This document shows, piece by piece, positions 13,990 through 35,346 of a DNA stretch of 64,000 nucleotides (position 1 is its first letter; each line of letters begins with the position of its first letter). The position numbers were made by a program, and so were the translations under genes. The stretch lies in the NCBI GenBank assembly GCA_030583665.1, contig CP129469.1, forward strand, positions 930,001 through 994,000, read 5' to 3'. The notes under the pieces were generated by a model that saw nothing but the letters and a program-made list of their open reading frames with translations, did not search any database and was not told where the DNA came from. The stretch is from Candidatus Jettenia sp. AMX2. Lineage in GTDB: Bacteria; Planctomycetota; Brocadiia; Brocadiales; Brocadiaceae.

Positions 13990-14360
13990 CTATGTCACCC
14001 CCTTCGGGGTTCAAAAATTTTTTTTATGACTTTTGCTATAATCATGACATCCCTTCGGGATTAACCCATGAATAACTATAGGTCAATAACCCCGAAGGGG
14101 TTGAAGATTATAATAGCTAATGAATAACTACGAACAAATAATCCCGAAGGGATGTCATGATTATAGATCAATAGATAACAGGTTGTCCGAGAATGCAAAT
14201 TCGTGAAATTTCAGGTATTGATTTACAAGGACTTACGACTTGGGAAATCGCGAAAAAGTGAATTCTCGGACAACCTGATAACTACAGATCAACAACCCCG
14301 TAGGGGTGACATGATTATAGCCAATGAATAACCACTGATTAACAACCCCGAAGGGGTGAA
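13990..14360. repeat. Island of six GC palindromes phased at about 50 bp
   Basis: Six 11-bp palindromes lie at 13999-14009, 14050-14060, 14090-14100, 14142-14152, 14296-14306 and 14346-14356. They are of two types, CCCCGAAGGGG and TCCCGAAGGGA (one has CCCCGTAGGGG). The flank TG(T/A)CATGATTATAG recurs beside them, in both orientations. Start-to-start spacings are 51, 40, 52, 154 and 50 bp. Subtracting the 97-bp MITE and its 6-bp target duplication turns 154 into 51. The first two units (reverse orientation) form a block of about 73 bp that recurs near 34933-35003. The stretch holds no gene. REP/BIME-like elements are the likely class. Confidence 0.85.
14180..14276. mobile_element. 97-bp MITE with 15-bp terminal inverted repeats and 6-bp target duplication
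   Basis: The ends AGGTTGTCCGAGAAT (14180-14194) and ATTCTCGGACAACCT (14262-14276) are perfect inverted repeats. They are flanked by GATAAC direct repeats at 14174-14179 and 14277-14282. The interior encodes nothing. The element sits inside the palindrome island, and removing it restores the spacing of about 50 bp. Its transposase source is not in the window; a full-length IS with the same ends elsewhere in the genome would identify the family. Confidence 0.88.
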
Positions 14361-34817: not shown

Positions 34818-34880
34818 GCGCGGCCTTTGGCCGCAACCAAATTCGAATTTCGGATTGCGGATTTCGAAACAGTTTCAAAA
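34818..34880 (+). repeat. First copy of a direct repeat flanking the second palindrome island
   Basis: The segment with GGCCTTTGGCCGCAACCAAA followed by an AT-rich TTCGAAT...GATTTCGAAAC run recurs, slightly diverged, at about 35098-35151. The two copies bracket the palindrome island (34935-35094) in the same direction. TTCGGATT-type words similar to these also occur at 49100-49240. Confidence 0.6.
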
Positions 34881-34932
34881 TGCGTTCTTTGCACCTTTGC
34901 GATGAACTATTACGATTTATTTTTTGTTTTCT

Positions 34933-35095
34933 AATCCCGAAGGGATGTCATGATTATAGCAAAAGTCATACAAAAGATTTTTAACCCCGAAGGGGTGACA
35001 TAGGAAACCCATGATCATCTTACAATCATGCCACCCCTTCGGGGTTGTTGGTTTTTGCTTGTTCATTTACTATAATCATGTCAGCCCTTCGGGCT
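34933..35095. repeat. Second island: four GC palindromes phased at 49-50 bp
   Basis: Palindromes TCCCGAAGGGA (34935-34945), CCCCGAAGGGG (34985-34995), CCCCTTCGGGG (35034-35044) and GCCCTTCGGGC (35084-35094) start 50, 49 and 50 bp apart. The TGTCATGATTATAG flank recurs. Positions 34933-35003 match the reverse complement of 13990-14062 closely (only a few substitutions and a 2-base length difference). No gene is seen between murG and murC (34749-35346). Confidence 0.85.
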
Positions 35096-35097
35096 TG

Positions 35098-35151
35098 GCG
35101 CAGCCTTTGGCGCAACCAAATTTGAATTTCGAAATTCGAAACAATTTCAAA
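35098..35151 (+). repeat. Second copy of the direct repeat flanking the palindrome island
   Basis: It repeats the AGCCTTTGGCGCAACCAAAT... pattern of 34818-34880, including the GAATTTCG and GAAAC-ATTTCAAA parts. The copy is shorter and diverged. Two direct copies around an array suggest the island was duplicated or inserted as a block. Confidence 0.55.
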
Positions 35152-35346
35152 TGACAAAAACTCAAAGCTCCAAACTATACGTAAGCCTTATCTAATTAAC
35201 GTCTTATGGTTATGTATTTTGAAAAACACGCACAAAAAACAAGAAATTGATGGATAGTAGTATGAAGTAATTTATAGAAAAAAATAATTCAAGATTCGGA
35301 TCGGAATGGTTGACAACACAATATTTATTCAGAAAGGGTAGATAGA

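Follow-up and report, generated by a model that had tools for sequence, protein, structure and literature searches.

The window analysed here, a stretch of 64,000 nucleotides from Candidatus Jettenia sp. AMX2 (contig CP129469.1, positions 930,001 to 994,000), raises the question of why ten 11-bp palindromes, six in one island and four in another, should follow each other at a pitch close to 50 bp while their orientation switches between units. All ten were reported in a first-pass annotation of the sequence and were recovered at the same places and with the same spacings. Eight of them match YCCCGAAGGGR exactly, as compared to 0.05 expected from shuffled sequence, and the remaining two differ by a GTA loop and a G/C outer pair. 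We consider it probable, at roughly 80%, that the islands represent a small mobile element that moves as single-stranded DNA, in non-autonomous copies that lack its gene. Such a system would be reminiscent of those formed by repetitive extragenic palindromes (REPs), REP doublets forming hairpins (REPINs) and REP-associated tyrosine transposases (RAYTs), but without their GTAG tag and with a doublet of hairpins at each end.

Hairpin architecture across the genome

In the whole genome (3.46 Mb, one contig) the palindrome occurs 294 times, whereas a reversed-pattern control gives 6. Neighbour spacing was computed for 200 listed sites. Same-strand neighbours closer than 100 bp number 67, and their spacing is 49-53 bp in every case and exactly 50 bp in 57, while inverted (+-) neighbours are separated by 49 bp in 28 cases and by 69 bp in 11. 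The genome-wide distance peak near 50 bp, which had been named as the test of the phasing, is thus present, and the islands are not limited to the two of the window. When the outer base pair of the stem is left free and each hairpin is designated T, C or G by its outer base, most islands resolve into one architecture, namely two hairpins 50 bp apart, a centre of 49 or 69 bp and two inverted hairpins. Type I, T+ 50 C+ 49 C- 50 G-, is found in both orientations in at least 29 copies with three or more hairpins, and type II, T/C+ 50 C+ 69 C- 50 T/C-, in at least 11 copies, both counts being lower bounds since they come from the listed sites as far as 2.36 Mb. The mixed orientation with conserved phase is therefore mostly the fixed anatomy of a composite four-hairpin element and not a free phased array. 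The four-hairpin anatomy is complete in island 2, where the start-to-start distances are 50, 49 and 50:

34933..35097, no strand: complete type I four-hairpin element, 165 bp
34935..34945, plus strand: hairpin T, outer hairpin, on the side that matches the right end around the transposase gene
34946..34984, plus strand: 39-bp spacer with the conserved tail TGTCATGATTATAG
34985..34995, plus strand: hairpin C, inner hairpin
34996..35033, no strand: 38-bp centre, the position of the transposase gene in related full elements
35034..35044, minus strand: hairpin C', inner hairpin, inverted
35084..35094, minus strand: hairpin G (GCCCGAAGGGC), outer hairpin, on the side that matches the left end around the transposase gene

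Island 2 also lies between direct copies, at 34820-34930 and 35097-35160, of a further repeat (CCAAATTCGAA... TTCGAAACARTTTCAAA), and this flanking repeat is common to most type I copies in the genome.

The hairpins carry constant flanks, since in the profiles of 229 hairpins of this genome and 458 others one flank reads A(A) and the opposite flank TG.CAT.ATTATAG, and a GT[AG]G tetranucleotide 5' of the hairpin foot was found in none of these profiles. Furthermore, 204 of 229 palindromes lie outside open reading frames (ORFs) of at least 120 aa, though such ORFs cover 69% of the sequence. Island 2 occupies the gap between murG and murC, which measures 599 bp here but at most 331 bp, and is devoid of the element, in the 24 relatives in which both genes are readable (17 of them in the same family); either this lineage therefore acquired the island or all the others lost it. 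The extragenic position might suggest that the islands are transcription terminators or mRNA-stabilizing hairpins under selection, with the transposase described below hitch-hiking on them, and strong stems are indeed predicted on both strands, as folding of a whole 169-nt element from end to end gives -43 to -47 kcal/mol with z about -10 on either strand. The left and right doublets could pair with each other in this predicted fold, and the TTC strand would as RNA presumably form C(UUCG)G loops. Such a role is however very unlikely in view of the facts that gene ends are not preferred (the flanking ORFs are tandem in 49 cases, convergent in 13 and divergent in 11), that the orthologous murG-murC site lacks the element in the relatives, and that the framing of one gene family across phyla would be left unexplained. 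As to a folded RNA, which the first-pass annotation had named as another possible cause of the pitch, a search of Rfam gave only a tRNA and no match at the islands. A clustered regularly interspaced short palindromic repeat (CRISPR)-like array was set aside by inference, the spacers not being unique and the orientation being inverted.

A transposase gene between the same ends

A search with Pfam Y1_Tnp found transposase genes beside palindrome pairs in several genomes. In the Jettenia genome itself an intact gene at C1:3096841-3097299 encodes a Y1/HUH transposase of 153 aa, and it is flanked on its left by two hairpins, a G and a somewhat decayed C, and on its right by a C and a T hairpin that are inverted relative to the left end. 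The spacer of the left end agrees with that of the G-half at 88% in its full length and at 82% with the tail excluded, as opposed to 66% and 55% for the T-half, and the spacer of the right end agrees with the T-half at 76% and 67%, as opposed to 65% and 52% for the G-half. Since the spacers still distinguish the two ends outside the shared tail, a type I island is best read, from its sequence, as the same pair of ends with the transposase gene removed. Elsewhere in the genome, at G000:C1:2986515-2987296, a decayed or rearranged tandem copy consists of two pieces of the transposase whose order is reversed, residues 115-153 preceding residues 2-42. There are also three Y1_Tnp genes of about 322 aa (G000:C1:1555063, 2371141 and 3330381), and the two that were inspected, 1555063 and 2371141, have none of these palindromes within 1.5 kb.

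The enzyme has the motifs NHVH, WQ and YILRQEEHH, the last of which conforms to the Y---Q--HH signature of class 1, and the Y---NP motif of class 2 is absent. It is assigned to Pfam Y1_Tnp with an E-value of 1e-19 and to the IS200/IS605 family of NCBIfam with 56 bits against a cut-off of 55. A phmmer search against solved structures gave no match, whereas for a structural model built from 25 relatives, with a predicted local distance difference test (pLDDT) score of 71, Foldseek returned the TnpA proteins of ISDra2 (E 6e-7) and IS608 (4e-6) and, more weakly, the TnpA-REP structure 4er8 (4e-4). By its [DN]H[VI]H, WQ and Y---Q--HH motifs, a length close to the ~148 aa of the subclass and its C-terminal tail, the enzyme fits TnpA_Y1 subclass 1.2, this membership being by motif only and the first residue of the HUH motif being N in some members.

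Framing in relatives and cognate hairpins

The same arrangement recurs in many other genomes. Relatives were sampled as the best 80 of 413 from named genomes and come mostly from Bacteroidota, but also from Ignavibacteria, Chlorobiota, Calditrichota, one Chloroflexi-labelled metagenome-assembled genome (MAG) and anammox bacteria, where single taxon labels may be wrong since many of the loci are from binned MAGs. Of the relatives, 67 of 75 have a hairpin within 300 bp upstream of the gene and 63 of 77 have one as close downstream, 52 of 72 being framed on both sides, and hairpin density is 8.5 per kb near the gene as compared to 0.45 per kb more than 1.2 kb away, a 19-fold difference. The typical layout has hairpins at -77 and -24 upstream and at +11 and +63 downstream. 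Outside the anammox bacteria 174 of 212 same-strand neighbours are 46-54 bp apart, 458 hairpins have the conserved tail G A. A T. A T T A T A, and head-to-tail pairs are found in 20 of the 25 genomes behind the loci and in none of the controls.

These data also bear on the suggestion, made in the first-pass annotation, that the pitch of about five helical turns may reflect a protein array, which would here mean sites for a nucleoid protein or a regulator on double-stranded DNA. A pitch near 50 bp would suit such an array, but centres of 49 and 69 bp coexist, the pitch drifts between 46 and 53 bp in other phyla, presence at the murG-murC site is species-specific and the link with a single-strand transposase family is conserved, which together make a protein array barely credible; we found no support for it and it is not needed to explain the pitch. 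Because of the same variation of 46-53 bp across phyla, the pitch of about 50 bp is best read as the inherited length of an end unit rather than as helical phasing.

The hairpin type follows the transposase clade. Within the anammox bacteria and relatives, members of the MAGTF clade have the hairpin A-YCCC-GAA-GGGR-T, while the sister clade MANTY/MPNTY has an inverted hairpin of its own, GCTCC...GGAGC (GCTCCnnnGGAGC; L118, L134, L142, L155 and L170), and two further clades have TGCCC/GCCCC and GCCCT stems. When hairpin type is placed as a label on a tree of 61 proteins, 10 changes are needed as compared to 25.3 in shuffles, none of 200 of which were as low. Flanking hairpins of these types are absent from a Y---Q--HH clade with the W motif WADEY/WQDEY (L124, L133, L140 and L171), and none lie near the Y1 genes of the 'WADEYFAVSVSES' clade, which serve as a negative contrast, as do the two inspected 322-aa genes. 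With transposases and hairpins paired clade by clade, nature supplies a set from which the rules of hairpin recognition by these enzymes might be learnt, and direct tests are possible with the hairpin, the tail and the gene obtained as oligonucleotides.

Relation to known systems

Like IS200/IS605 elements such as IS608 and ISDra2, the framed genes have the TnpA fold and catalytic motifs, subterminal hairpins and a single small gene. The end hairpins of IS200/IS605 elements are both read on one strand, whereas the ends found here are inverted relative to each other and doubled, and the gene copies are few and not of the near-identical multicopy kind. IS200/IS605 elements insert 3' of a fixed tetranucleotide and make no target duplication, a point on which the present data comprise the right boundary TTAAGTAC of copies in the relative G001, with differing flanks beyond it. 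A closer likeness is found in REP/REPIN-RAYT systems, also described as TnpA-REP or 'REPtron' systems (PMC3116915, PMC6006769, PMC8266576), with which the present case shares three traits, in that the hairpins are numerous, extragenic and paired in inverted orientation, that the Y1/HUH gene is present in few copies and has its own type of hairpin on its flanks, and that hairpin type co-varies with transposase clade. It departs from them in that AA-hairpin-TGACATGATTATAG takes the place of the GT[AG]G foot tetranucleotide, that the hairpins of each end form a head-to-tail doublet with a pitch of about 50 bp, and that the transposase has the motifs of class 1 (Y---Q--HH) and not those of class 2 (Y---NP). 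Bacterial interspersed mosaic elements (BIMEs) and dimers of GTAG or CGTC REPs (PMC3733652) are likewise clustered, paired, intergenic and of mixed orientation, but in the present case head-to-tail doublets of 50 bp are the rule. The original lead towards REPs, BIMEs and a RAYT was correct in kind, in that a Y1 gene is framed by the same hairpins. The system departs from described REP families in its tag, the architecture of its ends and its class of transposase.

With TnpA_Y1 subclass 1.2 as surveyed by Quentin et al. 2018 (PMC6006769), the enzymes have in common the Y---Q--HH, [DN]H[VI]H and WQ motifs, a length of ~150 aa, a C-terminal extension, low copy number and occurrence in Bacteroidetes. 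They differ from the surveyed members in that hairpins frame the gene in most of the relatives and in that the range now includes anammox bacteria, Ignavibacteria, Chlorobiota and Calditrichota. The table of the survey gives REP 'no' for this subclass and its text describes the members as generally without terminal IS200 secondary structures, and its automatic REP search was made for GT[AG]G at the hairpin foot (PMC6006769). Since this tag is absent here, the survey may have missed the hairpins for that reason. A transposase subclass described by sequence alone and listed without REP partners thus gains a candidate substrate in several phyla.

Distribution and points of disagreement

Same-strand pairs at the pitch of about 50 bp are found in 16 of the 33 genomes of the anammox family and in none of the 26 searched genomes of other families in the order. 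The large repeat load of some anammox genomes would thereby be accounted for, and we found no description of anammox repeats or of these palindromes in the literature that was searched.

Several observations fit the notion of gene-less copies less well. The framed gene is single-copy in its own genome, unlike that of an active insertion sequence, the other full-length related genes there being at most 55% identical to it, and the confidence of the structural model is middling. The nearest relative, G001, which is of the same genus, has 46 head-to-tail pairs and no cognate transposase was found in it, so that gene loss or another enzyme must be assumed, and the family-wide association between pairs and gene is moderate (8 of 9 versus 8 of 24 genomes, p = 0.006). 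Moreover, no base-exact empty site or target duplication of the hairpin element was shown. Finally, since type I copies have 60-100 bp in common beyond the hairpins, partly the second repeat seen around island 2, the mobile part may be larger or may be nested in another repeat.

Proposed mechanism and changes in unit number

The full element would comprise about 630 bp, with one 153-aa Y1/HUH gene and two hairpins about 50 bp apart on each side, the sides being inverted. We suggest that the stem-loops form when a single strand is exposed, for instance on the lagging-strand template, that a TnpA dimer would recognize its cognate hairpins and cut near the conserved TGACATGATTATAG tail, and that cutting would move either the gene-carrying or the gene-less element. 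That this enzyme makes the cut, that it does so at the tail and that the element moves as a single strand is proposed by analogy with the chemistry of IS608/ISDra2 and TnpA-REP. Units between adjacent hairpins may in addition be gained or lost singly, which would give rise to head-to-tail arrays of fixed pitch. Differences of one unit do occur, since the G001 copies (L303-L317) have a sharp right boundary, TTAAGTAC, after which the flanks differ, and with this boundary in common they have either one or two right hairpins (L304 and L311 versus L303 and L309). One copy in the Jettenia genome furthermore has five hairpins, and chimeric outer pairs such as TG and GG mark the loss of units by collapse between neighbours.

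Either the enzyme or replication slippage may have caused these one-unit changes, and the earlier proposal of stepwise amplification is hence partly borne out by the one-unit differences and chimeric hairpins. A more far-reaching version, in which the islands are tandem repeats whose 50-bp unit grows and shrinks by slippage between hairpins, without any transposase, and which spread by recombination or with other nested repeats, would be in line with the same observations, with exact 50-bp arrays such as the five units in L198, with the nesting of type I in a larger repeat and with the lack of a cognate gene in G001. It is nevertheless unlikely, since it leaves unexplained the inverted ends of fixed length around a transposase gene in several phyla, the way in which each end of the gene-carrying element matches one half of the gene-less one and the clade-specific hairpins, and slippage may be right for the changes in unit number alone. 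Within the preferred reading of the islands as gene-less transposon copies, we tentatively consider a further possibility, which we regard as more doubtful than not, that TnpA_Y1 subclass 1.2 represents single-strand transposons of a lineage of their own, with both ends made of a hairpin doublet that has an ATTATAG-type tail. In such an end, Hairpin1-TGACATGATTATAG-spacer-hairpin2 would act like a joined right-end/left-end junction, and one 50-nt unit could be excised from, or inserted next to, an existing tail. If so, the enzyme and not slippage would have produced the constant pitch, the arrays of head-to-tail units and the changes by single units.

Island 1 and its insertion

Island 1 is an irregular array made up of one inverted T-half doublet followed by four head-to-tail units, with raw start-to-start distances of 51, 40, 52, 154 and 50:

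13999..14009, minus strand: hairpin C (CCCCGAAGGGG), inner hairpin of the inverted T-half doublet
14050..14060, minus strand: hairpin T (TCCCGAAGGGA), outer hairpin of the same doublet, the tail TGTCATGATTATAG running leftwards on the minus strand
14090..14100, plus strand: hairpin C, head-to-tail unit 1 of four
14142..14152, plus strand: hairpin T, head-to-tail unit 2 of four, with tail TGTCATGATTATAG
14178..14277, no strand: 100-bp element with 16-bp perfect terminal inverted repeats (TIRs) CAGGTTGTCCGAGAAT and an ATA(A) target duplication
14296..14306, plus strand: hairpin CCCCGTAGGGG (GTA loop), head-to-tail unit 3 of four
14346..14356, plus strand: hairpin C, head-to-tail unit 4 of four

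No second copy of the 100-bp element with both ends perfect was found in the genome. The element is a later insertion into the spacer of unit 2, and the correction for a miniature inverted-repeat transposable element (MITE) made in the first-pass annotation is confirmed, as subtraction of the 100-bp TIR element and its ATA duplication brings the gap of 154 bp to 51.
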